Shown here: positions 1 to 32,511 of the stretch, one piece after another
Layout: every line of letters starts with the position of its first letter
Position numbering within the stretch: the first letter of the stretch is position 1
Source of the DNA: a virus
Reading direction: 5' to 3' (one strand)
DNA: 33,285 nucleotides
IMG/VR virus record: IMGVR_UViG_3300043137_000396
Location: 1 to 33,285 of that record
Notes under the pieces: generated by a model
Seen by the model: only the letters and a program-made list of their open reading frames with translations
Database searches by the model: none
Told to the model about the DNA's origin: nothing
Translations under genes and position numbers: made by a program

Positions 1-152
1 CCTGTACCAATGTATAAGCGATCACCGCCATTGGCAACAACAAGACCTTCGATCGCATCTTGTGATAGGTATGAATACGCTAACTCGCCTGTTGCAAGCG
101 TACTTGGTGAGCCGCTTGTGCCCGAGTTTTTGATTTTAATAATCGTTGCCAT
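1..152 (-). CDS. Partial virion structural protein (N-terminus only)
   Basis: The first 50 codons are present; the gene runs off the left edge. It starts MATIIKIKNSG and contains GELAYSYL and ends at GGDRLYIG. This N-terminus (short beta-strand, then 'GELAYSY...GGDRLYIGTG') resembles small fibre/structural proteins of T4-like marine phages. That is a family impression only, since most of the protein is missing. It is the last leftward gene of the fibre module in the window and starts 3 nt after the stop codon of the upstream gene, so it is probably co-translated with it. Role: probably virion surface or fibre; the exact function is unknown. Confidence 0.6.
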   Translation of the reverse strand, partial: MATIIKIKNSGTSGSPSTLATGELAYSYLSQDAIEGLVVANGGDRLYIGT

Positions 153-155
153 GGT

Positions 156-380
156 TTAGTACTTTCCTCCGATGATTTTTACTTTTGATCGAGGATGATC
201 GATCGTAGCTGTTAGTTTGAATTTTGAAGTATCAGCATCATATATCATCATCGCACCGTCTTCTAATTCAGTGGAATCAACATCATTTAAATCTAATAAA
301 TTTAAAGATGTAATACCAAGAGCAAAAGTACGAACTGTGACTGGTGTGTCAAGTTTAATTCTTGATCTTAATGTTGTCAT
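156..380 (-). CDS. Small hypothetical virion-module protein, 74 aa
   Basis: A 74-residue protein starting MTTLRSRIKL. It has no signal peptide, membrane segment or recognised motif. Alternating hydrophobic residues near both ends (TPVTVRTFAL, KFKLTATI) suggest a small beta-rich domain. It lies between two small fibre-module genes on the same strand, 9 nt downstream of the 112-aa gene and 3 nt before the partial gene, in an evident operon. I do not recognise the family; the context suggests a virion or fibre-associated role. Confidence 0.6.
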   Translation of the reverse strand: MTTLRSRIKLDTPVTVRTFALGITSLNLLDLNDVDSTELEDGAMMIYDADTSKFKLTATIDHPRSKVKIIGGKY

Positions 381-389
381 TTATACCTC

Positions 390-728
390 TTATGCTGGTC
401 GAGTTGCTCTAGGCGTTACTGTTACTTGTCCTTCAACAACACGAATTACCGTGCCTAAAATTGTGTGGACAATCTCAATATCATAAACATAACGACCATC
501 ACGCATAGCTGATGTTTGTGTGTTTGTCAATGTTAGCTTTACTTCGCCTCTATTGTCAGTCTTATCGCAACCGATTGCAGTTGCTGTAAGAGAAGTATAT
601 GTCTTTCTAATTTGCCCACGAACTGTATATGGAGCTAAATCCAACGCAGTACCAATGGAGTCTTCGATGTCCAACGTGGCCACGAAGTCTGATCCTTGGT
701 CGATAACTAAGTTAACTAACTGAGACAT
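390..728 (-). CDS. Virion protein with BppU-like/Ig-like N-terminal-domain pattern, 112 aa
   Basis: The 112-aa protein has the pattern 'QG-D---L---D--G-ALDL--Y---GQIR' followed by 'RYVYDIEIV...V-R-VEGQVTVTP'. This layout is typical of small beta-sandwich proteins found in cyanophage and other tailed-phage fibre regions, similar to the N-terminal domain of the lactococcal phage BppU baseplate protein. It is the first gene after a consensus late promoter (762-769) and heads the leftward run 728 to 1. Inferred role: a structural adaptor or small fibre component. The similarity is judged by eye. Confidence 0.65.
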   Translation of the reverse strand: MSQLVNLVIDQGSDFVATLDIEDSIGTALDLAPYTVRGQIRKTYTSLTATAIGCDKTDNRGEVKLTLTNTQTSAMRDGRYVYDIEIVHTILGTVIRVVEGQVTVTPRATRPA

Positions 729-761
729 TAATTCAAATCCAAAATATTGTTATTCTGGCTT

Positions 762-769
762 TATTTATA
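762..769 (-). promoter_or_regulatory. T4-type late promoter octamer TATAAATA
   Basis: The minus strand reads TATAAATA, the canonical T4 late promoter -10 element recognised by gp55-RNA polymerase. It lies in the 52-nt gap between the 122-aa gene and the 112-aa gene, about 33 nt upstream of the start codon at 728. It should drive the last fibre genes of the leftward run. Confidence 0.7.
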
Positions 770-780
770 TGATTTACTGC

Positions 781-1149
781 TTACGCCGATTCGTCTGGAG
801 GAATTAATTCTTCAATCCATGAAACCGTATTTTCATCCCATTTATACATGTAACCATCTTTATTTGGACATGGAATAGGAGGATCCCACTGACAAGTTTG
901 TTCATTAAACACAAACGAATCAAAAATCTTTGGAGGAATAAATGCATCTCTATTTCTATCATAAAGATAGCCAATGGCTGCATAATTTTTTCTAAGAGGA
1001 GTTTTACCTAATATGTGTACTCCTCCGTATGTATTTCTAGAAGTCTGTATAAACATAGAAGCATCTGGCAAAGAATTAATAAACTCTTCTTCAGCCACTA
1101 TAACATTTATTACAATATCATTTTCGTTTATTTGAGCGTATGTTGCCAT
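781..1149 (-). CDS. Conserved T4-like phage fibre-module protein, 122 aa
   Basis: The sequence starts MATYAQINENDIVINVIVAE and contains RKNYAAIGYLYDRNRDAFIPPK, then 'WDPPIPCPN' and 'KWDENTVSWIEE'. This order ('FAQI-----V--VIV', 'KN-A-IGY-YD--RDAFI-PKP', 'C-WE-P---P', 'Y-W-E-T-SW') is that of a small conserved protein repeatedly found beside tail fibres in marine T4-like phages. Its function is not established; a fibre assembly or capping role is a guess from position. It follows the glycine-rich adhesin by 1 nt, so translation is probably coupled. Confidence 0.75.
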   Translation of the reverse strand: MATYAQINENDIVINVIVAEEEFINSLPDASMFIQTSRNTYGGVHILGKTPLRKNYAAIGYLYDRNRDAFIPPKIFDSFVFNEQTCQWDPPIPCPNKDGYMYKWDENTVSWIEELIPPDESA

Positions 1150-1150
1150 A

Positions 1151-2344
1151 TTAACTACTCGGAATTAAATAACGCACTACACAATATCCAGTATCTCCTG
1201 CTTGAGCTGCAAATGAAGTCGCTCCTCCAGATCCACCTTTACCTCCGCCACCGCGATTTGCTCCTTGACCTTGACCATTAGCACCTGTTGTACCAAATAC
1301 TGTTCTACCTCCGCCTCCTCCGCCAGAATAATATTCTGCAGCACCATCGGCAGTTGGATCAAATGCACCGCCAGGTCCACCATTACCAGCATCTTTAGCT
1401 ACACCGCTTTGACCACCGCCGCCATATCCACCGCCGCCTCCACCAGTAGATTGAACTTCGCCATTACCAGCAATAATACCATTACCTCCACCATTGCCTT
1501 GACCAGGAGTTCCTCCACCTCCGCCGCCGTTGCTTGAACCACCTCCACCTGATCCGCCAAAATAACCATTACGATCCGTGTCGCGAGAACCACCGCCACC
1601 GCCACCGTTAGCAGTTATAAATCCTTGGAATGTAGTATTACCACCACTTCCGCCGTGAACGCTTCCATTTGGTGCAGCGCTACCACCTCCACCAATTCCA
1701 ATAAAATATGTTCCAGCTCCGACACTAATGTTGGTATATACGATACCGCCACCTCCACCTCCACCACCGCCATTACCTCCGCCACCGCCACCTCCTCCAA
1801 CTGCAAATACAGTTAAACCAAGAGAACGATTACAAAGGAAATTTCCGGAAGAAGTAAATTTATGATAACGATAACCGCCTCTATCAAAAATAGCATTACC
1901 ACCACGAGCGACGTCATCTAAAGATAATACAGGTGTTGTTGCAATAACTGGGCCTTCAACTGATTCAGTTCTAACAGCGATAGTAAATGATCTATTGCCA
2001 TCGCCTTGTTTGCTAGTTTCTAATTTACGACTGGTTGTATCTTTGCCATTGATGATAGAAAGCGGACCATTCAAAATACGATTATCAAAGTCATCTGTAC
2101 GAATAGTACCTGAAACAGTATTAATAGTCCAATACAATTTGGTTCCATCTGGCAAAGTTGGAGCATTAATCGTAACAGTAATTGTATCGCCTTCTAAGAA
2201 AGAAGTTGCATTAACAGTAGCATTTCTTCCGAAATACCATTCTCCACGCTCGATAAAACTACCAACTTGTTTTAAATGCCATATTCCATTAGCACTAAAA
2301 ACGTTTGGATAATTTTTTTTTCCGAATATTCCACCGTTATACAT
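1151..2344 (-). CDS. Glycine-rich tail-fibre adhesin, 397 aa
   Basis: The N-terminal ~160 residues are an ordinary beta-type region (GIWHLKQ near residue 20, then an Ig-like stretch). From about residue 165 comes 'YRYHKFTSSGNF', the typical entry to phage glycine-rich domains, then some 200 residues dominated by GGGGG runs separated by short hydrophilic linkers. The protein ends 'GYCVVRYLIPSS', a hydrophobic closing strand common in this fold. Phage S16 gp38 shows that such glycine repeats can pack as polyglycine-II helices and present receptor-binding loops; by analogy this is a host-recognition tip protein. Its start codon overlaps the stop of the upstream 210-aa gene. Confidence 0.75.
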   Translation of the reverse strand: MYNGGIFGKKNYPNVFSANGIWHLKQVGSFIERGEWYFGRNATVNATSFLEGDTITVTINAPTLPDGTKLYWTINTVSGTIRTDDFDNRILNGPLSIINGKDTTSRKLETSKQGDGNRSFTIAVRTESVEGPVIATTPVLSLDDVARGGNAIFDRGGYRYHKFTSSGNFLCNRSLGLTVFAVGGGGGGGGNGGGGGGGGGIVYTNISVGAGTYFIGIGGGGSAAPNGSVHGGSGGNTTFQGFITANGGGGGGSRDTDRNGYFGGSGGGGSSNGGGGGGTPGQGNGGGNGIIAGNGEVQSTGGGGGGYGGGGQSGVAKDAGNGGPGGAFDPTADGAAEYYSGGGGGGRTVFGTTGANGQGQGANRGGGGKGGSGGATSFAAQAGDTGYCVVRYLIPSS

Positions 2345-2976
2345 TATGAAACACCATTATAAACTCTAATATTTCTAAAATATCCAGCACCGCCTAATCC
2401 AAAAAATGTAATAAATGCACCAGATAAAAGAATTGGTTGACGATCATACTTATTATTAGCAGACCAATCAATACGCATAGCGTTATTAACTTCTAGCCGA
2501 ACAGGTACCCAAGAATTTGCCGGTAATTGTACACCAGTAATTGGAGGGTCACCCCTAACAGTCCACGAAGTTTGGAACATCATACCACTGTAATTACTAC
2601 CACCACGAGCATCTAATTTTAATAAAGGCCCTCGACCATCACCAGTACTTCCGATTAATACACCACACACTCCGCCACTAATATAAACTTCAAATGTCAT
2701 AGTTTTAAATAATACACTTGTAAATGGAGATACCATATTTCTATATGCATAGCTATTACCTGGAACATATATTGCGCTACTACTTGTCGTAGCACCGCTA
2801 ACAGTAAATCCATTCAAATTTCCATCATAATTCGTGTATAGTGATTGAGTAGCCCAACTATAATCAGTGACTTCAGTGTGATGTTGATTTAAATTCCAAA
2901 TGCCACTTCCAACATCTGGACTATTCACCCTATCATAGCCTATATAACCAGCTTTATGTTTACTACGTAAAGGCAT
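2344..2976 (-). CDS. LamG/concanavalin-like tail-fibre protein, 210 aa
   Basis: The protein contains SGIWNLNQ near residue 25, a motif shared with the next gene (GIWHLKQ). Its C-terminal 130 residues have the strand pattern of a concanavalin/LamG lectin fold: 'TMTFEVYIS', 'LLKLDARG', 'WVPVRLEVNN', then a closing 'YFRNIRVYNGVS', which matches the usual LamG end 'DdlRiYN'. The role is probably glycan binding or fibre structure. It overlaps both neighbours by one base (TAATG type), so it belongs to the same translational unit as the 119-aa protein and the glycine-rich adhesin. The fold assignment is by pattern only. Confidence 0.65.
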   Translation of the reverse strand: MPLRSKHKAGYIGYDRVNSPDVGSGIWNLNQHHTEVTDYSWATQSLYTNYDGNLNGFTVSGATTSSSAIYVPGNSYAYRNMVSPFTSVLFKTMTFEVYISGGVCGVLIGSTGDGRGPLLKLDARGGSNYSGMMFQTSWTVRGDPPITGVQLPANSWVPVRLEVNNAMRIDWSANNKYDRQPILLSGAFITFFGLGGAGYFRNIRVYNGVS

Positions 2977-3335
2977 TAACTAATGCTCTCGTATCCACAT
3001 ACAGCATGTAAATAACTATTAGTTGATCCAACAACACGTAAACTATCGCCTTCTTCTAAATAAATTCCACTATCCTTTGATACTACAACAAGCGTGGAAT
3101 TTGCTGGAACGAATACAGTATGCGCAAGTTTATATTCTGAAGAGCTTCTAAAAATACTAACAGTGACAGATGCAGCAGCCGTTCCATTAACGTTAGCAAT
3201 AGTTAAACTGTTTATTTTTAACACTTTATTACTAGCTGCAGCATTTGTAATAAGATCTTGTGCTGATGTAGTAACAAACATTACCGCTGTTTTACCAGTA
3301 ATGTTTGTTACGTTAACGATATTTGGCGCTGCCAT
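2976..3335 (-). CDS. Conserved small virion structural protein, 119 aa
   Basis: It starts MAAPNIVNVTNITGKTAVMF and has 'SSNKVLKINSLTIANVNG', a Ser/Thr/Ala-rich beta region and 'DSGIYLEEGDSLRV', ending 'AVCGYESIS'. The pattern is that of a small beta-sandwich virion protein widely conserved in T4-like cyanophages and pelagiphages ('KVFKVNSLyIAN', 'iYLeEGDSLrl', 'C-YE-IS'). It probably decorates the fibre or capsid; the exact location is not known to me. It is 11 nt downstream of the cupin gene and overlaps the next gene by one base. Confidence 0.75.
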   Translation of the reverse strand: MAAPNIVNVTNITGKTAVMFVTTSAQDLITNAAASNKVLKINSLTIANVNGTAAASVTVSIFRSSSEYKLAHTVFVPANSTLVVVSKDSGIYLEEGDSLRVVGSTNSYLHAVCGYESIS

Positions 3336-3346
3336 ATTTTCTCCGA

Positions 3347-3991
3347 TTATTTCGTGATATATGTTCTATTTAACATTGTGTGATTATGATCAGTTGGACC
3401 CCAATCACCATCTGGGTGAAATGCAATAACAGTCATTTCATCTTGTGTTGTCATAAAACGATGTTGTTCTCTTTCTTCAATACAAAACATAATACCTGGT
3501 TTTAATTCAATTAGTTCTTCTTCATATGCTCTTTTAATACAAGCATAACCTTTGCCTTTTACCACTACACCAAGTCTAATACTTGGATGAATATGATAAG
3601 TCTGTTTAATGGCAACTGGAAATTGTAATAAGTTTAATGAAGGATCTCCCATTCGAGGAGGATACACCAATAAACTGTCCGAACAAGAGTCAATATAAAC
3701 TAAGCGGCCACTTTTTTCAATTGGTCCACCAATAGTATTTTGCCCTTTGAACCCAAGACGTGCGAATATGTAAACTTCTCCAGTAGTTCTAATAGAATCA
3801 CCTTGTCCAGTCCAATAACAGAAATATTGTCCTTCTACAGCTACGCTTCCATTTGGAAATGTTACTTCGCCAGACATGATATAACCATATAAAGTAGAAT
3901 ATGGTTTAGAATGATATAATGCGTTTACTATTTTTTCAGCAAAACAAGGGTACATTGTATCTAACGCATCGATCTTATTTTCAATAATCAT
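3347..3991 (-). CDS. Cupin-domain protein, 214 aa
   Basis: The C-terminal half has a cupin signature: 'YHIHPSIRLGVVVKGKGYA' (His133 and His135 as metal-ligand candidates), 'IELKPGIMFCIEEREQHRF' (His177), then 'VIAFHPDGDWGPTDHNH' (His192). The N-terminal half (about 30-100) also looks beta-rich and may be a second, degenerate cupin barrel. Cupins bind a metal and can be isomerases, oxygenases or sugar/ligand binders, so the reaction cannot be named. Its start codon overlaps the stop of the ATP-PPase gene by one base, making it the last gene of the enzyme cassette 7895-3347 before virion genes resume. An accessory modification enzyme is an inference. Confidence 0.75.
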   Translation of the reverse strand: MIIENKIDALDTMYPCFAEKIVNALYHSKPYSTLYGYIMSGEVTFPNGSVAVEGQYFCYWTGQGDSIRTTGEVYIFARLGFKGQNTIGGPIEKSGRLVYIDSCSDSLLVYPPRMGDPSLNLLQFPVAIKQTYHIHPSIRLGVVVKGKGYACIKRAYEEELIELKPGIMFCIEEREQHRFMTTQDEMTVIAFHPDGDWGPTDHNHTMLNRTYITK

Positions 3992-5112
3992 TACATCATC
4001 TCCGAAAAAGTATTTGTTTCATTCCAGTATTGGCTATCGGGATAACCATTCGTAAATGTCATATCATCATTTAATAACATAACAATTTCTTTTTGTTTAA
4101 CTATATTTGTTAAACTACCAATCTTAGGTTTTTTATAATAAGATTGATCGCCATTAAAATCTAAAATATAATCTTTTGCAATATATTTTACATTGTCTAA
4201 AGATTCTCTTACTAAATTATCTGGATTATTTAATGACCACAGTTGGAAATCTTCTGGACAGAAAAACGTAGTATAGTTATCTTCTAATTTAATGTTGCTT
4301 CGATTTTTTGCATATGGCAATATGCGCACATAAACTGACTGCCATTTATTTGTAAAATTAATCCACCAAAAAAACTTATATACATTATCAATAGGAATAG
4401 GAGCAGCATTACAAAGATGCTTAAACATTTGCCAATAATACGGCGCATATTTTTTATATTCATCTTGCAATTTCATAGTCATCCAATCAATGATATCTCC
4501 AGAAGCTTGTTCTAATGGAGTAAACAAATAATCAAATGAACGATATGCAATAAATTTAGCTACTACTTGAGAACCAAATAACTGATCTGCATTTTCACCA
4601 GAAATTACAATATAGTCATCGTTTCCTAAAAAATATGGAAATCTATAACTTGAAATGCATTCAAACTTTTTAATAATATAATCGTTATAAAAATTAGGAT
4701 TTTCTAATATGCTATGATCAGTTAATAAAACAACAACGTGATTTCTTAAATCTTGCTCAGAGCAATTTTTTAATAATGCACATATAATAACAGTGGAATC
4801 AATCCCTCCGCTATACATTACAGCAATCTTACGATTATCTCGTTTAGCTTTATCCATCAATTCAATGGCTCTATCATCACAAATATCACTAAATGATTTA
4901 GTGAATGTTCTCATTTCAGGCATTTGAAGATGTGGTAATAAAGTGGTTTTTAGTGGAATACTAAATGTGTTAGTTCTATCAATAGAGGTAATGTTGCTAG
5001 AAAACAATTGGAAATAACCACCAAACGCATGACCGCCTGGAATTTGATTGCGCTTATCGTGATATGCTTCGTTTACGAAGATATCGTAACTATTATAAAA
5101 TATAGTGCTCAT
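3991..5112 (-). CDS. Asparagine-synthetase-like ATP-PPase lacking the glutaminase domain, 373 aa
   Basis: The ATP-pyrophosphatase (PP-loop) motif SGGIDST is at residues 101-107, preceded by a hydrophobic strand (IAVMY). 'ISGENADQLFG' (about 170-180) matches the asparagine synthetase C-terminal motif 'SGEGADELFGG'. There is no N-terminal Cys2 glutaminase domain; the first 95 residues are short and unrecognised. Such stand-alone enzymes adenylate a carboxylate and form an amide or related bond (asparagine synthetase, beta-lactam synthetase, lasso-peptide cyclase). Substrate unknown. It overlaps the upstream gene by 4 nt and the cupin gene by 1 nt. A modification role within the Cys-rich/radical SAM cassette is inferred. 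Confidence 0.8.
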   Translation of the reverse strand: MSTIFYNSYDIFVNEAYHDKRNQIPGGHAFGGYFQLFSSNITSIDRTNTFSIPLKTTLLPHLQMPEMRTFTKSFSDICDDRAIELMDKAKRDNRKIAVMYSGGIDSTVIICALLKNCSEQDLRNHVVVLLTDHSILENPNFYNDYIIKKFECISSYRFPYFLGNDDYIVISGENADQLFGSQVVAKFIAYRSFDYLFTPLEQASGDIIDWMTMKLQDEYKKYAPYYWQMFKHLCNAAPIPIDNVYKFFWWINFTNKWQSVYVRILPYAKNRSNIKLEDNYTTFFCPEDFQLWSLNNPDNLVRESLDNVKYIAKDYILDFNGDQSYYKKPKIGSLTNIVKQKEIVMLLNDDMTFTNGYPDSQYWNETNTFSEMM

Positions 5113-5843
5113 AGTGAATCGCCGTACTTTGTGCTTTCAGCTTTAAATTGTTCTAAAATAATACCTAAATCTTCAAGAGTAGTTTGTTGTTTAACAAATG
5201 AAGTATATTTTAATCTAAGTGTTTCATTTTCTGCTAAAAACGATGCACGCGTTTCATATTTGAATTTAATACGTTTAGAAGCTTCTACAATATCCATACC
5301 AACTAAGTCAGCATAACCAGTTACAAATGGATATTTACAAATAGGATCTTCAGTAATTCCTTTTTCAAGGATTTCTTTTGCTTCTAAATATTTTGCAAAA
5401 TAAATGTGGTTTTGACCTTGAGCAGCTTTAATTTCTCTACGTCTATTCATATCTAAACGACGATGAATAACATCTAATACTGCAGCTTTTTGAGAGATCA
5501 GAATAAAATCATATAGTTGCTCTAATGATTCGATATTAGGAGAATCTTGCCAAGCTTTACCATCTTCTGTAACACGAATTCTCCAACACTTATTCTTTTG
5601 GAAATATAAGTTTGGACGTTCTTCCATTCCCACTAACTGAAATGTAAAAATATTAGATTTATCAAATTCAGCTAAAGCTTTTACACTTGCAGAATAGTTT
5701 GCAACAGCCAATAATCTACCAGCTGATATCAAAATATTAGTATTAGTGTTTTTGAATGACATGTCTACTACACGATCTTCTGGTCTTGGCATAATTGGCA
5801 CAAGACTATCGTAGTAGTCATTAATTTCTTGATCTGTTAGCAT
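5109..5843 (-). CDS. Phage tail-module protein with helical tail-assembly-like C-terminus, 244 aa
   Basis: The N-terminal half is unrecognised. The C-terminal ~90 residues read 'KYLEAKEIL', 'KYPFVTGYADLVGMDIVEA', then 'ASFLAENETLRLKYTSF'. This follows a pattern common in small phage tail-fibre assembly and tail proteins: 'K--EA--------YPfl-aeA---G----eaA--I--------a-IE--R'. The role may be fibre assembly or coupling of the neighbouring enzymes to a virion substrate; this is not demonstrated. The start overlaps the stop of the 98-aa gene by one base and the end overlaps the ATP-PPase start by 4 nt. Confidence 0.6.
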   Translation of the reverse strand: MLTDQEINDYYDSLVPIMPRPEDRVVDMSFKNTNTNILISAGRLLAVANYSASVKALAEFDKSNIFTFQLVGMEERPNLYFQKNKCWRIRVTEDGKAWQDSPNIESLEQLYDFILISQKAAVLDVIHRRLDMNRRREIKAAQGQNHIYFAKYLEAKEILEKGITEDPICKYPFVTGYADLVGMDIVEASKRIKFKYETRASFLAENETLRLKYTSFVKQQTTLEDLGIILEQFKAESTKYGDSL

Positions 5844-6139
5844 TAGAATATCGGAGGCCTTATATCTCTGATGATATAATCATCAATTCTGGTTTTAATA
5901 TCTTCTATGATTGCATCATGACGATCTAAATTCTCAATCACTGAAGCTTCTAATATAGTTACAATTTTAACAAACTTTTCAGAATTAGCTTTATTAGTAA
6001 GTAAACATACAATTGAAACTCCATCTACACCAACTAAATCTCTAAATCTTTGTTTTAAGACTTGATGATATCTAACTTGAGCAACGTGCTCAGTTTGTCT
6101 AAGACGATTTACTAACGTTAATAAATTAGATGTTTCCAT
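5843..6139 (-). CDS. Small cassette protein, paralogue B, 98 aa
   Basis: I do not recognise the family. It is clearly a paralogue of the next gene upstream: 'HVAQVRYHQVLKQRFRDLVG' aligns with 'YVAQVRCNKILRQHYKNIVG', followed in both by 'V/E-DGv-I-CL', and both end in an acidic/hydrophobic helix ('IDDYI' against 'IDEYI'). It is predicted mostly helical with one beta pair, with no signal or membrane segment. It starts 2 nt after the paralogue stops and overlaps the 244-aa gene. The position between a radical SAM enzyme and an ATP-PPase suggests an accessory or substrate-recognition subunit; this is an inference. Confidence 0.7.
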   Translation of the reverse strand: METSNLLTLVNRLRQTEHVAQVRYHQVLKQRFRDLVGVDGVSIVCLLTNKANSEKFVKIVTILEASVIENLDRHDAIIEDIKTRIDDYIIRDIRPPIF

Positions 6140-6141
6140 AA

Positions 6142-6462
6142 TTATTCGCTATCTGGTAGTTTTGGAAGAACATCGTTTTCAATATATTCGTCGATCTTTA
6201 ATTTCATGCTTTGCAGACAATTCTGATATTGCATAGGATCATCCCACACTTCTTTAGATAAGATATCTTCAAACTTCAAATACTTGTCTTCGCCTGACTT
6301 CACCTGGACTAAACATGCAATGTATAATCCATCTTCCCCTACAATATTTTTATAATGTTGTCTTAAAATTTTATTGCAGCGCACTTGTGCTACATAAGGA
6401 ATAGTTTTATATAAGCGAATTAGTTCTGGTAAATTTTGACTTTCTATATCAATTAATATCAT
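6142..6462 (-). CDS. Small cassette protein, paralogue A, 106 aa
   Basis: It starts MILIDIESQNLPEL and contains the block 'YVAQVRCNKILRQHYKNIVG' and 'GEDGLYIACLVQ' shared with the 98-aa downstream protein, so the pair arose by tandem duplication and diverged. Its start codon overlaps the last base of the radical SAM stop codon (TAATG), implying translational coupling to that enzyme. Small partner proteins of radical SAM enzymes often bind leader peptides (RRE-type winged helices), but the pattern here does not let me assign that fold. Function unknown. Confidence 0.7.
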   Translation of the reverse strand: MILIDIESQNLPELIRLYKTIPYVAQVRCNKILRQHYKNIVGEDGLYIACLVQVKSGEDKYLKFEDILSKEVWDDPMQYQNCLQSMKLKIDEYIENDVLPKLPDSE

Positions 6463-7895
6463 TACTCTTGTACCCTTGCTTGTGTATAAACTTCTACATT
6501 ATCTAGTACTGTTTTTTCACTTACTGCAACAATAGGGATAATTCTTTTAGAAGTTTCTTCTTTATGACTTAATATTGTGCCCCAAATATCTTTTCTCTCT
6601 GAAGGCAATTCATTACTATTTATGTACAATGGAATATAGCCTGATGTCATCTTTTCAAATGCTAATGCAAAAAGTGCAATATTATCGGAGTATGCATTAT
6701 CACACGTTGTTTTCCAAAATTTGCCATCTAAAAACATACATGAACCTTTACACATATGTAAAACAGGACATTTTGAACATTCTTCTCTATTAGCCCAATG
6801 AGTAGCAGATTTTAATTCGACATTATCATAATCATCTAAGTTACCACCCAAATGAGATTCACCATTCATGGCAGTTTCAACAGCAGATACATTTTGGCAT
6901 GTTAAAACATTACCTTTCATATCAATCGCTAAAACATGTTGATCGTCCATACCACACTTTTGACCAAGACCAGAAGCAGGTTGTTGATTCATAACAGAAT
7001 TAGTAAATCCATCTATTTTTTGAAGAATAGTTCCAAATCCAATATAACCATTATTTGATCTAATATCATTAAATGAATTTCTTCTAAACTCAAAATGTTC
7101 TTGTTTAGTAGATAAAGAATTATTCATGCCATCTAAATCATATGCATCAACTAAAGCTCCTTCTCCTAATGGAACTTGAGGATCTCCAGTAAAATTAATA
7201 AACCAATCGTGGATAGCTTTACGATCTTTATTTTTAGAATTTAACATAGAATTAAAACTAATTCTACCTTGTGGTTTCATTATCTTATAAAATTCTAATA
7301 CGATCTTCTTTGCTTCTTCGTCTTCGAATGGATCAGGTCCTCTAACACTTTGTCCAGGTCCATCATGACTAATAGAAACGTAAAATCCCATATAATACAA
7401 CCACGCACAAATATCGCGCGTTAAAATAGAACCGTTTGTGATTACAGAAAATTTAGGTCTATTTTTCCAATGAGAAAACTTTTCCATAATAGCTTCTGCA
7501 AGAGGCTTCATAGTTTTCCAATAAACGAAAGGTTCTCCTCCCCAAAATTCTACTGATAATCCTTGTTGCTCAGTAAACTCTAACACTTCCAACTTTTTCA
7601 TAAAGTCTTCAATGTCTTTTTTATTTGTTTCTGGTGGACGACCTACAAATTTTTGAGAACAATAGTCGCATGAATAATTACACGAAAGACCCATTTGGAT
7701 CTTTAGCTTTGTAATATTTTTGGATTTCTTTAATGGGGATTTTTTAGAAAATGGTGTAGATATATGATCGTGTGTTTTTTTATTTTCTACACTAAATATA
7801 AAACCATCTTCAGAAGATAAAACATTTTTTACATTATCATAAAAAAATGTTTTTCTGTCTTTTTCACTGCGCTCTGCTAAAATTTCAAATATCAT
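6462..7895 (-). CDS. Radical SAM enzyme with SPASM-type C-terminal cluster domain, 477 aa
   Basis: The radical SAM motif CxxxCxxC is at residues 72-79 (GLSCNYSCDYCSQ) and would bind the [4Fe-4S] cluster that cleaves S-adenosylmethionine. 'VEFWGGEPFVYW' is the usual SAM-binding GGEP motif. The C-terminal part has SPASM-like cysteines: 'GQKCGMDD', 'VLTCQN', 'EECSKCPVLHMCKGSCMF' and 'TTCDN'. This architecture is that of peptide/protein-modifying enzymes (anSME, sactipeptide and ranthipeptide/SCIFF maturases). The Cys-rich gene lies immediately upstream, 21 nt away, and is the obvious candidate substrate. A TATAAATA-like element (GATAAATA) lies in that gap. Reaction and substrate are inferred; the family is secure. 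Confidence 0.92.
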   Translation of the reverse strand: MIFEILAERSEKDRKTFFYDNVKNVLSSEDGFIFSVENKKTHDHISTPFSKKSPLKKSKNITKLKIQMGLSCNYSCDYCSQKFVGRPPETNKKDIEDFMKKLEVLEFTEQQGLSVEFWGGEPFVYWKTMKPLAEAIMEKFSHWKNRPKFSVITNGSILTRDICAWLYYMGFYVSISHDGPGQSVRGPDPFEDEEAKKIVLEFYKIMKPQGRISFNSMLNSKNKDRKAIHDWFINFTGDPQVPLGEGALVDAYDLDGMNNSLSTKQEHFEFRRNSFNDIRSNNGYIGFGTILQKIDGFTNSVMNQQPASGLGQKCGMDDQHVLAIDMKGNVLTCQNVSAVETAMNGESHLGGNLDDYDNVELKSATHWANREECSKCPVLHMCKGSCMFLDGKFWKTTCDNAYSDNIALFALAFEKMTSGYIPLYINSNELPSERKDIWGTILSHKEETSKRIIPIVAVSEKTVLDNVEVYTQARVQE

Positions 7896-7911
7896 AATAT
7901 CGCCTTAAATA

Positions 7912-7919
7912 ACTATTTA
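7912..7919 (-). promoter_or_regulatory. Late-promoter-like element GATAAATA
   Basis: The minus strand reads GATAAATA, one mismatch from the T4 late consensus TATAAATA. It overlaps the stop codon of the Cys-rich gene and lies about 17 nt before the radical SAM start at 7895. It could give the modification cassette its own late transcription. With a mismatch and a short leader, the assignment is tentative. Confidence 0.4.
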
Positions 7920-8327
7920 TCCACCACCACCATCAGCACATGCACACGCACATGCACAAGCACATGCACAATTATAGCTGATTTCAGTTTGATTACAATT
8001 ATATGTACAAGCACAATTACAATTTGGTTGTAACCAAGCTTGTGTATCACAATTCGTACAATTCACTGCACTAGTAATAGCACAATTCGTGCATTGAATA
8101 TTTCCGCAATTACAGTTTGCAATACAATTGCCGTTAGCGCAATTGCCTTCTGAATTTTTTTGGAAATACGCAAATCCATAGACGTCATCAATTTCGTTCG
8201 TTGGAAGTCTATTTGCAGGTTTTACGATTGATTTAACCCACGATAGGGAAGGTGAAAATGAGGTTGGTTGCCCAGCCTCATTTGCGATATCTCTAAGAGT
8301 AATTAATCCAGTTGTTTGTAAAGTCAT
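7917..8327 (-). CDS. Cys-rich virion/RiPP-precursor-like protein, 136 aa, 18 Cys
   Basis: Residues 1-60 contain 'LITLRDIANEAGQ' and 'DDVYGFAYFQ', resembling the N-terminal peptide of small phage virion proteins ('i-l-DI--EfG---p-slS'). Residues 63-130 hold 18 cysteines, mostly as NC and AC: positions 63, 68, 72, 74, 79, 82, 90, 93, 103, 105, 107, 111 and 120-130 at every second residue. The protein ends in ADGGGG. The six-fold Cys-Ala run uses GCA, GCT and GCG codons, so it is maintained at protein level and is not a DNA microsatellite. It overlaps the S74 fibre stop by 4 nt and precedes a radical SAM/SPASM gene. A modified Cys-rich fibre-tip peptide or a metal-binding protein are the main options. 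Confidence 0.85.
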   Translation of the reverse strand: MTLQTTGLITLRDIANEAGQPTSFSPSLSWVKSIVKPANRLPTNEIDDVYGFAYFQKNSEGNCANGNCIANCNCGNIQCTNCAITSAVNCTNCDTQAWLQPNCNCACTYNCNQTEISYNCACACACACACADGGGG

Positions 8328-9415
8328 AATTTAGCTTCAATAGCTTTTACTCTATCTGTCAATTCATTAATAGCTTGTAGAAGAAGACCTCCCATATTTC
8401 CATATGAAACTGAGAGCATTCCATTTTCGCCAACGCGAATTAATTCTGGAATTTTATTTTGCACTTCTTGTGCTACAACACCAACACTACGTTCATTAGT
8501 ATCTATAGATGTGTAATAGATGCCTCTTAATTGATTAACAATATCTAAAGCACCTTTGATAGTTTCAATGTCTTTCTTAAGACGTATATCTGAATAACCA
8601 CCAACGTTACCAACCATAACCAAATTACCACCGGGTTGAATCTCTCCACTTTTTACACCGTTATTTGTAAAAAATATAGAACCATCCCCACCCCAATAAA
8701 TTCCAGTATCTTGTGCTCCATCAGATGAAAATCCAAGACTTGGGGCAGTAGCAGAACCATTACCGAGATATACTCTACTTCCAACTGTTAGATTGGCAAT
8801 AGTAATATCTGTTGAGCTATTAATCTTATTACCATTAATAGATGTAAGCCAACTTGGATTATCATATCCTGCTTCTTCACTTACTGGTGTAAAACCTAAT
8901 GCTGTAGTAACGTCTGTATCTTCTAAATCAAAACCTTCATAAATTCTACCATCACCATCTACTGTAACCTTTGTATAAGTTCCAGGTTCTACTCCGGTAG
9001 GATTAAGTTGTAATTGTCCCGTTGCATTTGAAGATCCATCAAATACTACATCCCATGTTGCATCTCCAGTGATAGAAATAATACGACCATTACGAAGTTT
9101 TGTAGCTGTATTTGCATTACCATTTAAGTTTCCAGTAACGTCAGCAATTAAATCACCAGCTAATGTTAAATTTCCATCTAAATCTAAGATTAACTCAGCT
9201 GAATCGCCTTGATCGACGTTAATTTGAAATGTATTACCAAAAGTCGTGATAGTACCATCAACTAGCGCGTTACTACGCACTTCGTTAATTGCTGCAACTA
9301 AATTTGTTGAAGTTGTTTGAAGAGAATCTGCATCACCAATGGTAGAACCAAGTTGATTAGTCTTAACTCTCCATTGTTCGAATGTATCTTCTAAACTTAC
9401 GTTTATGACAGACAT
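8324..9415 (-). CDS. Tail fibre with C-terminal S74 intramolecular chaperone, 363 aa
   Basis: The C-terminal ~92 residues are a peptidase S74 (endosialidase-type) chaperone: 'YSDIRLKKDIETI' (Ser275 with Lys279/280 as the self-cleavage dyad), 'RSVGVVAQEVQ', 'VSYGNMGGLLLQAINEL' and a terminal coiled coil. Such domains trimerise a beta-helical fibre and then cleave themselves off, probably before Ser275. Residues 1-270 are beta-rich repeats of the phage-fibre type ('LDGNLTLAGDL', 'GRIISITGDATW'). A trimeric tail spike or fibre is inferred. Its last codons overlap the start of the Cys-rich gene (ATGA), tying the two together in translation. Confidence 0.88.
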   Translation of the reverse strand: MSVINVSLEDTFEQWRVKTNQLGSTIGDADSLQTTSTNLVAAINEVRSNALVDGTITTFGNTFQINVDQGDSAELILDLDGNLTLAGDLIADVTGNLNGNANTATKLRNGRIISITGDATWDVVFDGSSNATGQLQLNPTGVEPGTYTKVTVDGDGRIYEGFDLEDTDVTTALGFTPVSEEAGYDNPSWLTSINGNKINSSTDITIANLTVGSRVYLGNGSATAPSLGFSSDGAQDTGIYWGGDGSIFFTNNGVKSGEIQPGGNLVMVGNVGGYSDIRLKKDIETIKGALDIVNQLRGIYYTSIDTNERSVGVVAQEVQNKIPELIRVGENGMLSVSYGNMGGLLLQAINELTDRVKAIEAKL

Positions 9416-9426
9416 TTACTTCTCTC

Positions 9427-9666
9427 TTATTTTTGGACATGTGCTAATATCTGACTTAGCATTTGCTTAATGTCTTGAACTTCCTCTTTAAGCTCTTTAA
9501 TGTCCTGTGTGTTTTGTTCAGTTTCTTCTCTGGATTTAAGCAATGCCTTACGATGCTTTAAATATGCATTTCTAGAGCTATCATCTGTATTTACAATGGC
9601 ACCAGAATGTAGGTCTCGGTAGAGACCTACTTCATTTTCAACTTTAACAGCTTTATGCACAAGCAA
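9427..9666 (-). CDS. Small coiled-coil virion-module protein, 79 aa
   Basis: A 79-aa protein starting MLVHKAVKVENEVGLYRD. The second half ('RKALLKSREETEQNTQDIKE' onward to 'ILAHVQK') has strong heptad character and should form a coiled coil. The first half ('VGLYRDLHSGAIVNTDDSSR') resembles small conserved proteins of T4-like marine phages located beside the large structural protein. The start overlaps the end of the 2118-aa gene by 14 nt, indicating coupled translation. Probable baseplate-fibre connector or assembly factor; the function is inferred from position only. Confidence 0.65.
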   Translation of the reverse strand: MLVHKAVKVENEVGLYRDLHSGAIVNTDDSSRNAYLKHRKALLKSREETEQNTQDIKELKEEVQDIKQMLSQILAHVQK

Positions 9667-12600
9667 TTACTCGTAATTCTTTTACGCGTGGTACTTGTGC
9701 GCTATTACCAGATTTGAACACTAATTTAACAACAACACCATCAAATTCTGCAAGATCTGTCAAATCGTATTGTACATCTACAAATTCATCTGGATTAGAA
9801 GTTTTCTTAACATTTTTTGTAGGCGTTGTAGCACGAACAAATGAATGTTGAGAGATATCTCCGTTTGTACCAGTTGGAATTAGTTTATACCAAACTTCAA
9901 CATCTGAATCAGTTACTGCAGGAATATTAGCTGAGAACATAACTTTCAAGAATGTTGAAGGTTGTTCTAAGTTAATTAAACGAGTTAAGTACTTAGATGT
10001 TGCAGTGCCGCCAATTGGTACACTTTCATCAATGAAATTATCTTTCAATGTGATAGTAGTATTAGCTGGAGATTCAGTTTCAAATGCATCGTAATTTGTC
10101 GTGATAGATGAACCATCAGCAGCAACAGCAGTTACTAATACTGGAAGTGTTGTATTGTTATTTGTTGTGCCGCTAACAGATACATACTTGCCAACTGTGA
10201 TAGAACGAACAGCAGCTCTTGCAGTACTTGGAACATAAATTGTTCCTGGATTATTTTCATCAAATGTGAAACCTGAAATAGCATCTGCGATAATTATATC
10301 GTCTAAGCCATCAACGTTTTTAGTAACATACGTAAAGTTATCAACTCTATTTTTAATCGTTGCAACAGATAAGCGTGAAGTATCAATGATTGGAGATAAT
10401 GCAGAATTATCTGTATTCAATCTTGCAACAACCTTTAACGATTTTGAACCATCTAAAGAAGTAGCAGTTGCTTCGTTAATTGCAGAAACTACTTGTTGTG
10501 ATGAAGTAAAATATACGGTTTCATTAGGAATTACACTAACCGGTTCTGTTGCAAAATTATATGCTGTATCAGTAGTCAACATTTCATATGACAATGTTGT
10601 GTCAGAGAATGTTTGTGATTGAGTAATTAGTTGAGCTGCGTCCATTGGAACGTTTTCAGAAACAACGATATCAGTACCACCAACAAATCCTGTAGCATCA
10701 GCATCTGTACCAGTATCGATAACATATGAATCTGATTCTGGATTACTAATGATAAATTCACCATTTAAACCAGAAGAAGAAGTTGTAATAATACCGTTAT
10801 AGTCTCCATCAGCAACGTTAGAAATAATTACAGTTGAACCAGATGGCATACCATGATTACGATGTGATACACGTACTTTAGATGAATCTAGCGTTGTCTT
10901 AAATGGATTTGCATCTAAAACAGCAGGAGGAAGAATATCATTAGTAAATGTTGCAATACCTTCTGTGTTTGTATTAAACTCGGCACGATATACTGTGAAC
11001 TTCAAATCTTGTTCTTGATTAGCAGTCCATGTAGAAGCGTTTTGTGATTTAAACAATACACCTGCATATGGTTGCTCAGAAATGAAACGTTCTGTTCCAA
11101 TATTCTTTTCGCCAAGTTGTGAAATCCAAACACGATAATTATTTGAATCAGATAAAAGAACGATACAGTATTCAGTCTCGTCTTGAACATAAACTGGAGA
11201 TTCAAATGTGAATGTAGTTGGTACAGTAGCATCGTTAGATGTTTGAATTTGATCTGGGTTTAATGTAATCTTAGAGAAAGGTAAAATACCTGGACCTGGA
11301 TAACCGTTTACAGACTCACGAATTTGTAAGTTAACAGGAATGTTTGCATCTTTAGTAGAGAAGAAAATATCAACTTTAGTTAAGAATGCACCGCCCTTAG
11401 AACCAATCATAATAGTTTGGGCAAGTGGGTCGTACCAACCAGTATCACGAACAATACGTTCTGGAGAGAAGATCTCTTGTGTACGTTGTTCTGATGCAGG
11501 ACGTGTAACAATTTCAGCATTACGTACAGCATTAACTGAACGTTGTTTAGTTTCTAGTGTACCTTGTGCACGATATGTGCCACGACCTTGTGTTGTAAAG
11601 TCTTGACCACCAGTTGTACTATCACTCAATTTAAATTCACGAATACCTGTGCGGAAACGCATGCTGTCAGTATTTGGAATTGAGAAAATACCAGCTAAGT
11701 TACCGTTAAAGTTAGTTACTAAATTTGCGCCTTGTATAGCAGTAGCAATAGCTCCTGAACCTTGGATAATATATTCTGCTCCTGAAATAGAACCCTTAAT
11801 AATATCTCCGCCTTGGAATGTGCCAGTTACGTTTAGAACATAAACACCTTCTGCACCAGTATCAGTAGTTTTTTCTTTTAATACTGCAACGCCACGAGCT
11901 GGAGATGTTACTTGTGAATTGTACGTTGTACCTCCACGTGTTTTAACGTAAATTACATCACCCTTATTGAATGATACTTCTGGTTTACCGCCAACTTGAC
12001 GACCAATATCATTAGCAGCTGCACCAGCATTAGTTTCTGTGTCAAACTCTAAAGAACCATTTTGTGTAATTGGAAGACGAGTTGCAGGAGTTACATATGC
12101 TTGAATTGATGCATCATCAAAGAATGGATTTAATTTTGTATTTGGTTTTAAACCTCGACATACAAATAATAATTCACGAGCACGAATATATGGAATAACA
12201 GCAGTTTGAAGTACTTTGTCATCGATTACTTCATAATCAACTTTAGGTACAACAGATGTTGTAATACCTGAACGAGATTGACCAACAGTAGTAGCTTGTG
12301 TTTGGAATGTCAATACACGAGCACCTGCTGCACCATTACCAAATGATGTTGCGTCACCACCAATTGCACGAAGTTCAGCAGCAGTAAATGTACGACGATC
12401 CATCCAACGACCAGCGCCAAGACCAAAGTTTGTGCTATCAAATCCACGTGTAACAACTAAACGATCAATGTTACGTGTTTGACCTGTCCAAGTTGTTTGC
12501 CATGCATTCCATACTGTACCAAGAACGCCTTGGTTTTCAAGTTGTGTTTGTACAGCTGAGAAGTTACCTTCTACGTTTGTGATAATATCTGGACGACGAT

Positions 12601-15600
12601 CTGTTTCAAACCAATCATCAGATGGTGGATTTAATGACATTTGACCCAAGAATGTAAACACAGCAAATGGGTTAACGTTCTCAGTACGCGAAGCAAATGG
12701 TTGAGAAATAAACTTAAGATGGCTATATGGTAATGAAATAATATCACCAGTTAATTGATAACCGTCTGCTACTCTATCTCCAGGAATTTGATTTTCTTCT
12801 ACAAGATTTACGTTATCCATTGTATAAAATGGACGTAATTCTTGTGCAGTCATATCAATAGAACAACGATAATCAGTAGATGCTACGTCACCTAAGTCTT
12901 GACCTTTAAAGTTATCAACAATAAATCCATTTTTGAAACGCTCTAAGCCAACTTCATCTTTGATTGTAAGAGATTTTGTTTCGTTTTCTAACAATGAAAG
13001 AGCAGTGTAATATTCTAAGTTTTCAATACGCTTGTCTAACTTACCAATATCACGCATTGTGTAACGCTTAGTGTCAATAGTTTCAATCGTAACAGAACCA
13101 TCGCTTGGAAACGCTGTGTATGGAGATACGTTTAATTTAGCAAGCATCATTCCAAGCACAGGATCTTTTGGTTCTTGCGGTGCAGTGCTTGCTACGCCTG
13201 AAACAGTAAAGAATCTACCTTCGATATCAAGCGCCAACTTATCGCGACGAGCTAGATAATGTGAATAACTTGCAATTGTTTCGAATCCAAGTTTTGGCAA
13301 TTCTGAAGGAGATGCACCTGTGCTGCTATAACCTGTACCAGCATCATTGATACGTGGACGGAAATCCATTACGTCGGCAAGAGCAATCATGCCACCAGGA
13401 GGTGTGAAATATGGAATATTTTCAAATGGAATATCTGAGTATGAGTCTACTGTGAAGTAGTCACCAGCAGTACCAGTTGTGTGGTCAAAATAATCAAAGA
13501 TTACACGAACAGCACCTTTTGGAACTGGATATCCAGGTTTACGTGTGATTGTAGCCACATCATAGTGTGTTTCACGTTGACCATTGTCAAATGTATACCA
13601 ATCTGTGATATCAGTTGTTTCAGCTGGATCAGAAGACGCAGTGAATCCGCTATTTTTCATACGAATAGCAATGATGCGATATCCGTCAGCTTTAGCAAGA
13701 GATAATGTTAATGGTTGAACTGCACCAATAGATGTAAAATCTTTAACTGCATTGCTAATAAGTGTTTTCTTCTTTTCTTGAGCAATTGTACCAGCCTTAC
13801 GAACTGGAGCAAATACTGTATATGAAGATGATTGTGCTAATCCTGTAATTTGTGCATCAGCACCATTATTGATTAAATTAATAGCAGTAGGATTAACTGG
13901 TCTGCCAGTAGAACGATTGATTACAACGAATTCATTCTTATTAGCAGCTGGATTAAATTCAGTACCAAGAGTCGTTGAACCTGATGCTGCTCCAACAGAG
14001 ATAGTCAATGATGTTTGACCTGAAGAAGTAGAACCAGTAAACTTTTGTGTGGTTGTATATGACGTTGCAAATGTTGCATCATTATCACCGCCACGAACTT
14101 TACGAATAAATGATTGCGCAAGCGGGAAAATCAATCCAGTAAAACTTGGATCTTGGATTTGTGTCATTACACGCTGGAATGTTTTACCAGTAACAGTGCC
14201 ACTAAATGCAGTTGCAATAGCAAGAGTTGTATTATTAGTAATAGAAGTAATTCTGCGAGTTTCTAATGCTCCAGCAGAATCTTCTACACGAATATAATCA
14301 CCAACTTTTAATTCTGTTGTAAATTTTGAACCAACACCAGTTACTGTTGTAGATGAAGCGCCAATTGTACCGCTTAATGTAACATAAATTTGAGAAACAT
14401 CAGCAACAAAATTGCTTAGTGTTGTACCTGAATCATAATATAGTTGTTTAACATCACGCTCAAATGTATATCCTTCTTCTATTTGAAGATCGAACAAATA
14501 CGCTCTATAAACAGCAGAAGCTCCTGGAGTACCTGAATCATATTCAAATGCACGTAAACGTGCTGTACCGATAGCATTACCAGCACCAGAAGCTTGAGAA
14601 TTTGTAGATGGAGTTAATTGATCATATAATGTAACAGTTGGATATGTTGTACAATCTGGTACACCATATACGTTTGAAACATAAATGAAATTGCCGTATT
14701 TAATATCAATAGAGTCACCATCAATACGTACATATTCGCGCGACTTAGGAACTTCTAAAAATTCAGTTGCAATTTTTTCAATTTCATAACCTTGAACATA
14801 GCCTTTACCAGGTTCAACAGCAACTGCGAATGAAGATTCTGAACCACCATTTTCTGGTGCTTTATATCCACGATTAAACGAAGGACGAGGAGTATAGTTC
14901 CAATCCATATTACTATCTGAATAGATTTGATATGGATTAGTTTCAGAAAATGTAGTATCTGGTTCAATTGTACCAGATGTAGCTGTTTCCATAGCAGTGA
15001 AATAATTATCACCACTCTTTACAACATCGCCTAAACGATATTCTGTAAATGCTTGCCATGGACCACGATCATTATTACGATGCTCGCGAATAGCTAATTT
15101 AAAAGGACGAACTGTATAATTACCAGATTCATCATATGTACGACGCGCTAGTGTTTTAGCTAGTTCAGAATATGTAGATGTTTCTACTTTACTCTTTAGT
15201 TCTCCATCTTCAATGCGTAGTAATTCAATAAAGTTTTCGTCTAATTCAGATTCTAAAGTTAATTTAGCGAAAGTTAACAATAATTGATAACGATGTGCAC
15301 CTGGAGCATTTTCATTTGGTGAACCATTGGCATTATCATTTAATGTAGCATCAGAATTAGATGTTACAATGTTTTCTGTTGCCAATAGACCAACACGATA
15401 TGTCGGCGTATTGCTATATTTTGCAAGAATGATTGTTGCAGATTCAACTTGAACAAATTGGCTTTTAATAAAGTAAATGCCAGATTGTATAGAAGCAATA
15501 GAACCTAAACCAACAGGAGTATTAGCTACAGGGAGAATTTGAAGAGTATATTCTTCACCATCGATAACCGTTGTTAATAATTCTTCTGCAGAAAATGTTT

Positions 15601-16009: not shown

Positions 16010-16024
16010 GTTTTTGCCTTTGTG

Positions 16025-17353: not shown

Positions 17354-17379
17354 TCTATGTCCTTATTATGTACTTTAAC

Positions 17380-17387
17380 TATTTATA
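17380..17387 (-). promoter_or_regulatory. T4-type late promoter octamer TATAAATA
   Basis: The minus strand reads TATAAATA in the 37-nt gap between the 307-aa gene and gp8, ending 27 nt before the gp8 start at 17353. An AAGGACAT ribosome-binding region follows. It matches the T4 late consensus exactly and probably starts a unit covering gp8, the giant structural protein and fibre genes downstream. Confidence 0.75.
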
Positions 17388-17390
17388 TGC

Positions 17391-18314: not shown

Positions 18315-18328
18315 ACTCTTACCTTTTA

Positions 18329-20694: not shown

Positions 20695-20705
20695 GATCCT
20701 ATTTA

Positions 20706-26147: not shown

Positions 26148-26155
26148 TATTTATA
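26148..26155 (-). promoter_or_regulatory. T4-type late promoter octamer TATAAATA in the divergent gap
   Basis: The minus strand reads TATAAATA in the 40-nt gap between divergent gp48 and gp4. It ends 33 nt upstream of the gp48 start and should drive the leftward baseplate operon; an AAGG-free leader with CCTATAGGGTATCT precedes the ATG. Its last base overlaps the gp4 ATG. On the plus strand the only candidate for rightward late initiation is the weak TATAAGGT at 26123-26130. Confidence 0.8.
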
Positions 26156-26598: not shown

Positions 26599-26606
26599 AT
26601 AGAAGT

Positions 26607-30908: not shown

Positions 30909-30972
30909 GAAGATTAGGAAGTTTTTAAACGACCTACCTAAATCAGACCCGAAGGATTTTCCTTCATACTAA
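30883..30972 (+). CDS. Possible overlapping small ORF, 29 aa
   Basis: In the +1 frame relative to the tape-measure gene, an ATG at 30883 opens MQWLVAHVKKIRKFLNDLPK followed by SDPKDFPSY and a stop that abuts the terminator stem. The sequence is amphipathic and basic, then ends in an acidic/Pro segment. Upstream only a weak AGAAG is visible. It could be a real micro-gene, a shifted C-terminal extension of the tape measure, or chance; the evidence is slight. Confidence 0.3.
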   Translation: MQWLVAHVKKIRKFLNDLPKSDPKDFPSY

Positions 30973-30995
30973 AAAGGGACCTCACGGTCCCTTTT
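30972..30995. terminator. Symmetrical rho-independent terminator
   Basis: AAAAGGGACC, loop TCAC, GGTCCCTTTT form a perfect 10-bp hairpin with T-runs on both strands (the T-run continues to 30997 on the plus side). It lies between the rightward tape-measure unit and the leftward small genes, and should stop transcription from both directions. Confidence 0.9.
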
Positions 30996-31316: not shown

Positions 31317-31365
31317 TTCGCGCGCTCCTTAAATATTAGGCAGAGGACCCCCACGAGCCCCAAAG

Positions 31366-31629: not shown

Positions 31630-31670
31630 AACTGGCGAATATAATAACCAAATCTGTAAATTAACTGCTC

Positions 31671-32510: not shown

Positions 32511-32511
32511 A

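Follow-up and report, generated by a model that had tools for sequence, protein, structure and literature searches.

A radical SAM/SPASM enzyme paired with a cysteine-repeat fibre protein: a probable two-part tip maturation system in phage tail operons

In a viral stretch of 33,285 nucleotides (IMG/VR record IMGVR_UViG_3300043137_000396, positions 1 to 33,285; hereafter the window), we found that the gene for a radical S-adenosylmethionine (SAM) enzyme with a SPASM domain (6462..7895, minus strand) and the gene upstream of it, which encodes a Cys-rich virion-fibre-type protein (7917..8327, minus strand), represent a pair that is almost inseparable in related loci. We propose that the two probably constitute a fibre-tip maturation system, apparently widespread among phages, in which the radical SAM enzyme modifies the Cys-repeat tip, most likely by introducing thioether links. 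The initial annotation of this DNA had grouped six overlapping genes, among them the radical SAM gene, into one cassette, and had favoured a multistep modification pathway made late with the virion over host metabolic genes. The near-inseparability of the enzyme and the Cys-tipped fibre protein supports a virion-linked peptide- or protein-modification role over a metabolic one; however, as judged from gene neighbourhoods, the core is the enzyme with the upstream Cys-rich protein and not the six genes, from which this key partner had been omitted.

The association between tip and enzyme was examined in both directions. In the forward test, 47 viral loci were found by the radical SAM enzyme alone and then checked for a tip, our strict rule counting a tip or a homologue of the Cys-rich protein on the same strand (the proteins of L014-L016 and L045 were counted as homologues by name). 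A strict hit was present on the same strand in 42 of the 47 loci versus 4 of 47 on the opposite strand; a 43rd locus, L013, whose tip is fused to an S74 domain, was added by eye, and the remaining four (L032, L034, L040, L041) have less than 2 kb of upstream sequence. Among the genome loci, for which the best 80 of 107 were taken, 59 passed the strict rule, 3 were added by eye under a looser reading (L199, L204, L207), 7 were truncated and 11 failed. After clustering at 80% identity, a strict pass was obtained for 25 of the 27 viral clusters and for 32 of the 41 genome clusters. In the reverse test, viral contigs were searched with a DNA pattern for a C-terminal NCNC[x]CNC-stop, which occurred in 51 contigs, 11 of them already known as radical SAM contigs. 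Searching the other 40 along their whole length revealed the enzyme in 34, giving 45 of 51 overall and about 24 radical SAM clusters, and in the six contigs without it the sequence stops 72-2,441 bp downstream of the tip gene. As a base rate, 4 of 50,697 phage records matched the enzyme in single-sequence tblastn, with 80% or more of its length covered in 3 of these. A control pattern with Gly in place of Cys was present in 3 contigs, with no radical SAM gene in the stretches examined around them. The background of the strict rule was 249 hits in 13,530 open reading frames (ORFs), 8 antisense, a biased rate since these loci had been selected for the system. The pairing spans T4-like and siphovirus-like tail regions, on contigs binned to several bacterial phyla.

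The enzyme, 477 amino acids long, belongs to the radical SAM superfamily by its Pfam match (Radical_SAM, 3.4e-9, 37.5 bits against a cut-off of 29.5) and to the SPASM group by a score of 34.9 bits for TIGR04085, above the cut-off of 27. Among 24 diverse representatives, 40-74% identical to the window enzyme, the CxxxCxxC motif (C72, C76, C79) was invariant, as was the seven-Cys SPASM set (C314, G328, C333, C373, C376, C382, C386, C398), whose pattern we take to be CX9-15GX4C...CX2CX5CX3C...C. Its top NCBIfam scores were all for peptide or protein maturases, namely PapB, QhpD, geopeptide and CcpM, and its relatives in the PDB include 8vpo, 5wgg (CteB), an anaerobic sulfatase maturase and YydG. 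Because its motifs are intact and its best curated scores fall on peptide or protein maturases, we classify it, by sequence, as a maturase of the type that acts on ribosomally synthesised and post-translationally modified peptides (RiPPs). The phage family phrog_1802 matched it at 3.7e-63; this family is annotated on a gene of phage 2-1 and has a gene of phage JWF as a named member, both being cultured phages. A search of plasmids returned distant partial matches, PeaB among them.

The proposed substrate consists of 136 amino acids, 18 of them Cys, and its homologues adjoin the radical SAM gene in relatives. It ends in NCACACACACACADGGGG, its C-terminus also being given as YNCACACACACACADGGGG, and the residue preceding Cys is Asn in 11 cases, Ala in 6 and Gln in 1. 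In distant relatives, small or long fibre-like proteins terminate in NCNCACNC, NCNCNCNC, VCACACACNC or similar runs, with no BLAST-detectable similarity to the window protein. Counting each distinct tip run once per cluster, Asn precedes the tip Cys in 321, Ala in 85 and Asp in 34 of 467 cases. The tip is located either at the protein end or directly before a self-processing domain: Hint follows it in gp028 of phage JWF, in phage 2-1, in Burkholderia paludis, in L018 and in several Rhodospirillaceae contigs, while S74 directly follows it in L013 (these domains were tested with Pfam for JWF, L018 and L013 and assigned by motif for the others). Hint and S74 domains self-cleave, and in fused tips this would remove a C-terminal part, so that the mature protein would end with the Cys repeat. 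The Hint form occupies separate places in the enzyme tree, which suggests that it was gained repeatedly. An NCBIfam scan of the tip proteins gave merely a weak intein-type match, in the JWF fibre. In L014, L015, L016 and L045, the Cys-rich protein is encoded downstream of the enzyme and continues for about 150 residues after its Cys repeat.

We envisage the following course of events. A fibre or fibre-like virion protein would bear an alternating (Asn/Ala/Asp)-Cys tip, usually at its C-terminus, and the radical SAM/SPASM enzyme, expressed late from the operon of the fibre protein, would modify this tip. Two small paralogous proteins encoded after the enzyme, p106 and p98, would probably help to present the substrate. 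A Cys of the tip would be drawn towards the auxiliary [4Fe-4S] cluster of the enzyme, and the 5'-deoxyadenosyl radical would abstract a hydrogen from a neighbouring residue, giving rise to carbon-sulfur (thioether) bonds. Disulfides are short-lived in the reducing cytoplasm, and a tip locked by thioethers would be rigid and redox-proof before the virion exits that compartment. The remaining cassette proteins, TAC-like, ATP-pyrophosphatase (ATP-PPase) and cupin, would be accessory to this system, a module that may contribute a modification of the amide type. The parts of this proposal differ in strength. The sequences themselves show the pairing, the repeat pattern, where the tip lies, that the enzyme motifs are intact and that the accessory module is separable; that the tip is the substrate of the enzyme is very likely; the formation of thioether bonds we hold to be somewhat better than an even bet; and a mechanical or redox-proof stabilisation of the tip we suggest only tentatively.

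Several points weigh against this proposal. Its support is sequence association throughout, and many of the metagenomic contigs are near-copies, 205 loci reducing to 88 clusters at 80% identity. The window enzyme stayed below the NCBIfam equivalog cut-offs of PapB (75.3 against 340 bits), QhpD (67.9 against 453), SCIFF (44.8 against 425) and CcpM (65.7 against 500), and none of the five enzymes scanned (from the window, L049, L190, L202 and L211) exceeded an equivalog cut-off among the matches listed; the reaction therefore cannot be read from family membership. Pfam and NCBIfam scans of the window proteins gave no match to a recognition domain (RiPP recognition element or PqqD). A tree was built from 84 of the 88 clusters, four representatives without the anchoring motif being left out. 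Its main clade of 63 rows counts in favour of the pairing, with 59 rows that have a tip and 4 that are truncated or flank-limited, whereas a distant clade has 15 rows with a tip, 5 with none and 1 truncated; since shuffled labels equalled the separation of tip from non-tip rows in 152 of 500 trials, the tree alone lends no support. Finally, the 11 failing genome loci each have at least 5 kb of upstream sequence and no tip by the tests used. Of these, L147, L189, L201 and L206 have no tip, L201 even though it keeps the usual companion; L214 carries transposase-like ORFs upstream, and L208 and L215 are partial. L184 adjoins ABC-export-type genes (by eye), and in L211, a Bacteriovorax contig, an enzyme relative has a PqqD gene (3.5e-8) and an ABC transporter as neighbours (7845-11068), with L216 and L217 coming from the same bacterial group. 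These loci resemble peptide-modification loci outside phages and give a hint of where the enzyme came from, L211 being possibly an ancestor-like peptide system.

The enzyme could also modify the tip by a different reaction, such as epimerisation, formation of a C-C cyclophane or activation for a later step, in which case the tip Cys residues would be metal or Fe-S ligands or free thiols. YydG (8ai1-8ai6) is among the PDB relatives of the profile (1e-5), the cyclophane maturases DynA and YhhB also score in NCBIfam, and the strict alternation of the repeat would fit an epimerase acting on every second residue (YydG-type/proteusin) or a column of Cys ligands. Other chemistry is moreover encoded nearby, since 19 of the 27 viral clusters, and 15 of the 41 genome clusters, have same-strand members of 2-oxoglutarate (2OG)-Fe(II) oxygenase-type families at a distance of up to 6 kb. 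However, that all seven SPASM Cys are in place and that PapB, QhpD and CcpM give the best scores is more in keeping with thioether makers, and cyclophane formation requires conserved aromatics, which the tips, inspected by eye, do not have. We consider a different reaction on the tip unlikely, though with an appreciable chance of being right.

A more doubtful alternative is that the six genes form one pathway that builds a single modification. Reading along the minus strand, the order is S74 fibre, Cys-rich protein, radical SAM enzyme, p106, p98, TAC-like protein, ATP-PPase and cupin, followed by small virion- or fibre-like genes. All six ORFs of the cassette, and the gaps of at most 2 nt and overlaps of 1-4 nt given for them in the initial annotation, were verified: the radical SAM gene overlaps p106 by 1 nt, p106 and p98 are separated by 2 nt, p98 overlaps the TAC-like gene by 1 nt, the latter overlaps the ATP-PPase gene by 4 nt, and the ATP-PPase and cupin genes overlap by 1 nt. 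The order of the genes from the S74 fibre to the cupin, with a small gene after the enzyme, is repeated in the Polynucleobacter contig L139, and such recurrence is more than chance; the order is also kept in L001, L002, L004 (partially) and L005. ATP-PPase genes lie near the radical SAM gene in 16 of the 88 clusters, distant ones included (L036, L188), so that the ATP-PPase appears, from these neighbourhoods, to be a recurrent optional partner. Against a single pathway, the four accessory families were absent within 6 kb, in the stretches examined, from 70 of the 88 radical SAM clusters. In the converse survey of the best 80 of 255 viral ATP-PPase loci, where flanks were limited and some loci truncated, the radical SAM gene was found in 11, a TAC-like profile match in 25 and a cupin match in 46; 69 loci show no radical SAM gene in the stretch examined. 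The TAC-like gene accompanies the ATP-PPase without the enzyme in 14 of those 25 loci, and all three module genes occur together without it in 8 of the 80. The single-pathway claim of the initial annotation thus stands only in part: the small paralogues track the enzyme and L139 keeps the order, but the TAC-like, ATP-PPase and cupin genes, which commonly occur apart from it, are by this comparison a separable module. In part, this is the situation that the initial annotation itself had said would refute it, namely homologous genes occurring separately. We accordingly rejected six genes as one pathway.

Concerning the members of this module, the TAC-like protein (5109..5843, minus strand; 244 amino acids), whose profile matches lie beside ATP-PPase genes, has no Pfam or PHROG match, so its earlier label as tail-assembly-like was not confirmed and an assembly role was rejected. 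The ATP-PPase (3991..5112, minus strand; 373 amino acids) carries both the PP-loop SGGxDS (SGGIDS at 101) and the SGExxDxxFG motif (SGENADQLFG at 171) and has no glutaminase domain, which bears out its description as a glutaminase-less asparagine-synthetase-type enzyme. It is not asparagine synthetase B proper, having no N-terminal glutaminase and only 16.7 bits, over residues 91-123, for Pfam Asn_synthase (cut-off 21). Its best Foldseek match was human ASNS (6e-4), followed by TsnB9 and beta-lactam synthetase, with a weak model of mean predicted local distance difference test (pLDDT) 61. The cupin-like protein (3347..3991, minus strand; 214 amino acids) scores 24.7 bits for Cupin_2, below the cut-off of 27.2, and its homologue in L139 scores above it with 45.6 bits. 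Loci with the whole module and no radical SAM gene are exemplified by L240:7205-9709, L238:1926-8241, where two ATP-PPase and three TAC-like genes are found, and L247:7268-8876, whose upstream gene is TAC-like by position only; by eye, replication-type or PhoH-like ORFs stand close to some such loci. Genes of phages or prophages for periplasmic solute-binding-type proteins stand beside radical SAM or ATP-PPase genes at L036:7628-8572 (DctP, 3.1e-51), L188:10375-11277 and L262:9548-10462, the latter two by eye.

The small paralogues, p106 (6142..6462, minus strand) and p98 (5843..6139, minus strand), are about 32% identical to each other, and members of their family were found in radical SAM loci only, among the loci examined. 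They are fused into one protein in L005, and their profile matches the C-terminal half of a protein of 220-236 amino acids (hhalign 95%, 4e-8) that directly follows the enzyme in L006, L007, L009, L011, L012, L013 and L019. They are best read, from these sequence relations, as partners of the enzyme. The AlphaFold model of p106 (pLDDT 81) had no PDB match at E<=0.001, the best being gelsolin-domain complexes at a meaningless E of 0.06; a winged-helix recognition element was rejected on this basis.

It is very improbable that the true substrate is a neighbour other than the tip, for instance the Ig-like protein of families F8/F21 whose gene often stands between the tip gene and that of the enzyme. 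A F8/F21 profile match was found in 53 of the 88 radical SAM clusters; however, 26 clusters, the one of the window included, combine tip and enzyme without it, while only 3 show the reverse, without a strict tip, and the Ig-like protein as a constant substrate was therefore rejected. Of the two, the tip accompanies the enzyme more constantly, and it is as rich in Cys as would be expected for a substrate of a radical SAM/SPASM enzyme. The least probable alternative, that the radical SAM gene serves auxiliary metabolism, its product acting on a small molecule of the host, and lies in a fibre operon by chance, could draw on the metabolic interpretation of many radical SAM genes in the text consulted of a Campylobacter phage paper (PMC2853527) and on a low G+C content, as in recently acquired genes (29-31.5% for the radical SAM, small-paralogue, TAC-like and ATP-PPase genes versus 35-38% for the fibre, Cys-rich and baseplate genes, the cupin gene being at 34%), but we rejected it in view of the two-way association with tips across tail types and bacterial phyla.

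The cassette lies among virion genes. The window is a T4-like tail and baseplate region by its Pfam matches (gp53, gp19-type and T4 baseplate) and its baseplate wedge PHROGs. Fibre genes flank the cassette on both sides, as had been noted earlier: upstream lies a tail fibre gene with a C-terminal S74 chaperone domain (8324..9415, minus strand; Peptidase_S74 1.5e-11, with long-tail-fibre PHROGs), which shares 4 nt with the Cys-rich gene, and downstream of the cupin gene, after 11 nt, come a small virion-like and then a Gly-rich fibre-like protein, both recognized by eye. The Cys-rich gene ends 21 nt before the radical SAM gene. A T4-type late-promoter-like element (GATAAATA; 7914..7920, minus strand) is situated 25 nt before the radical SAM start. 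The word ATAAATA, which we take to be the T4 late-promoter consensus, is rarer than chance across the window (7 versus 18), yet 6 of the 7 sites precede a gene start on the same strand by no more than 40 nt; such words were recorded at 762-768, 7914-7920, 17380-17386, 20700-20706, 26148-26154 (-) and 26595-26601 (+). Since the sites sit just before gene starts, the cassette is probably expressed late, as the initial annotation had supposed, although the element directly before the radical SAM gene is absent from most relatives checked. A promoter and terminator scan of the window was uninformative (68 promoter-like sites versus 75.6 expected), and megablast of window positions 1-20000 against phage records gave no match. 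Separately, positions 30908-32512, about 1.6 kb, contain no ORF above 94 amino acids on either strand; tRNA and Rfam scans were empty, this region included.

Fibre-tip operons of other phages contain further enzymes. Besides the 2OG oxygenases described above, whose profiles from the same sequences match just 2 of 67 ATP-PPase loci without a radical SAM gene, 5 of the 27 viral clusters encode a tryptophan halogenase and 6 a second radical SAM enzyme (for the oxygenase-type family F42, Pfam gives DUF6445 only and the label was assigned by eye). Tryptophan halogenase (1.2e-97), second radical SAM and 2OG-Fe(II) oxygenase genes share tip operons in L009 (7711-9240 and 9233-10777), L012, L019 and L006. 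Because these genes lie nearby, fibre-tip operons seem to collect oxidative tailoring enzymes, which suggests a wider protein-modification hotspot in which they may be further virion-tailoring enzymes. In the text consulted, the function of a cyanophage tryptophan halogenase is merely speculative (PMC2984593), and Campylobacter phages CP220, CPt10 and relatives are described with 11-12 radical SAM genes (PMC2853527); tblastn of Campylobacter phages with tip-clade enzymes gave partial matches only.

Comparison with known systems shows both likeness and difference. PapB-type ranthipeptide maturases and QhpD/PeaB resemble the window enzyme in the radical SAM core and SPASM domain and give its top scores (75 and 68 bits), and QhpD acts on a structural protein subunit rather than on a small peptide; however, the window enzyme lies far below their cut-offs (340 and 453), no recognition domain was found, and it is paired, in a tail operon, with a fibre-type phage protein that carries NCNC repeats. 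SCIFF/CcpM and other Cys-rich RiPP systems likewise place a Cys-rich substrate beside a SPASM maturase, and a dedicated Cys-rich precursor beside the maturase, as in RiPP systems, is found here; in contrast to them, the substrate proposed here is of the tail-fibre type, usually with a C-terminal repeat, and not a short exported peptide, and no transporter is present among the neighbouring genes examined. For phrog_1802, a phage "radical SAM domain-containing protein" of category other, PHROGs mentions neither a function nor a substrate, nor any connection with fibre tips. The window ATP-PPase shares motifs with asparagine synthetase B, beta-lactam synthetase and TsnB9, its best Foldseek matches with a weak model, but differs in having no glutaminase domain and a Pfam score below cut-off. 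Self-cleaving fibre chaperones (S74/endosialidase) likewise process a fibre at assembly, and S74 and Hint follow fused tips; here, unlike in that maturation, a separate radical enzyme is added. We found no report of a fibre-tip radical SAM maturase in the consulted part of the open-licence PMC literature.

Phage receptor-binding proteins are thought to mature via folding, chaperones and proteolysis. With slightly less than even confidence, we extend our proposal to phages of several tail types, which would share a radical-enzyme system that converts adhesion-fibre tips into Asn-Cys needles with covalent cross-links, the fibre being in effect a virion-borne RiPP; the ATP-PPase/cupin module, a halogenase, 2OG oxygenases or a second radical SAM enzyme could optionally tailor it further. 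If true, modification of the tip by a radical enzyme would be a new layer of receptor-binding protein maturation and a source of covalently stabilised binding tips, would help to explain the radical SAM, oxygenase and halogenase genes found beside fibre genes, and would mean that virion tailoring is the task of many tail-operon genes now called auxiliary metabolic. Viruses would then appear to complete their attachment proteins using a kind of chemistry that is familiar chiefly from antibiotic-like peptides.

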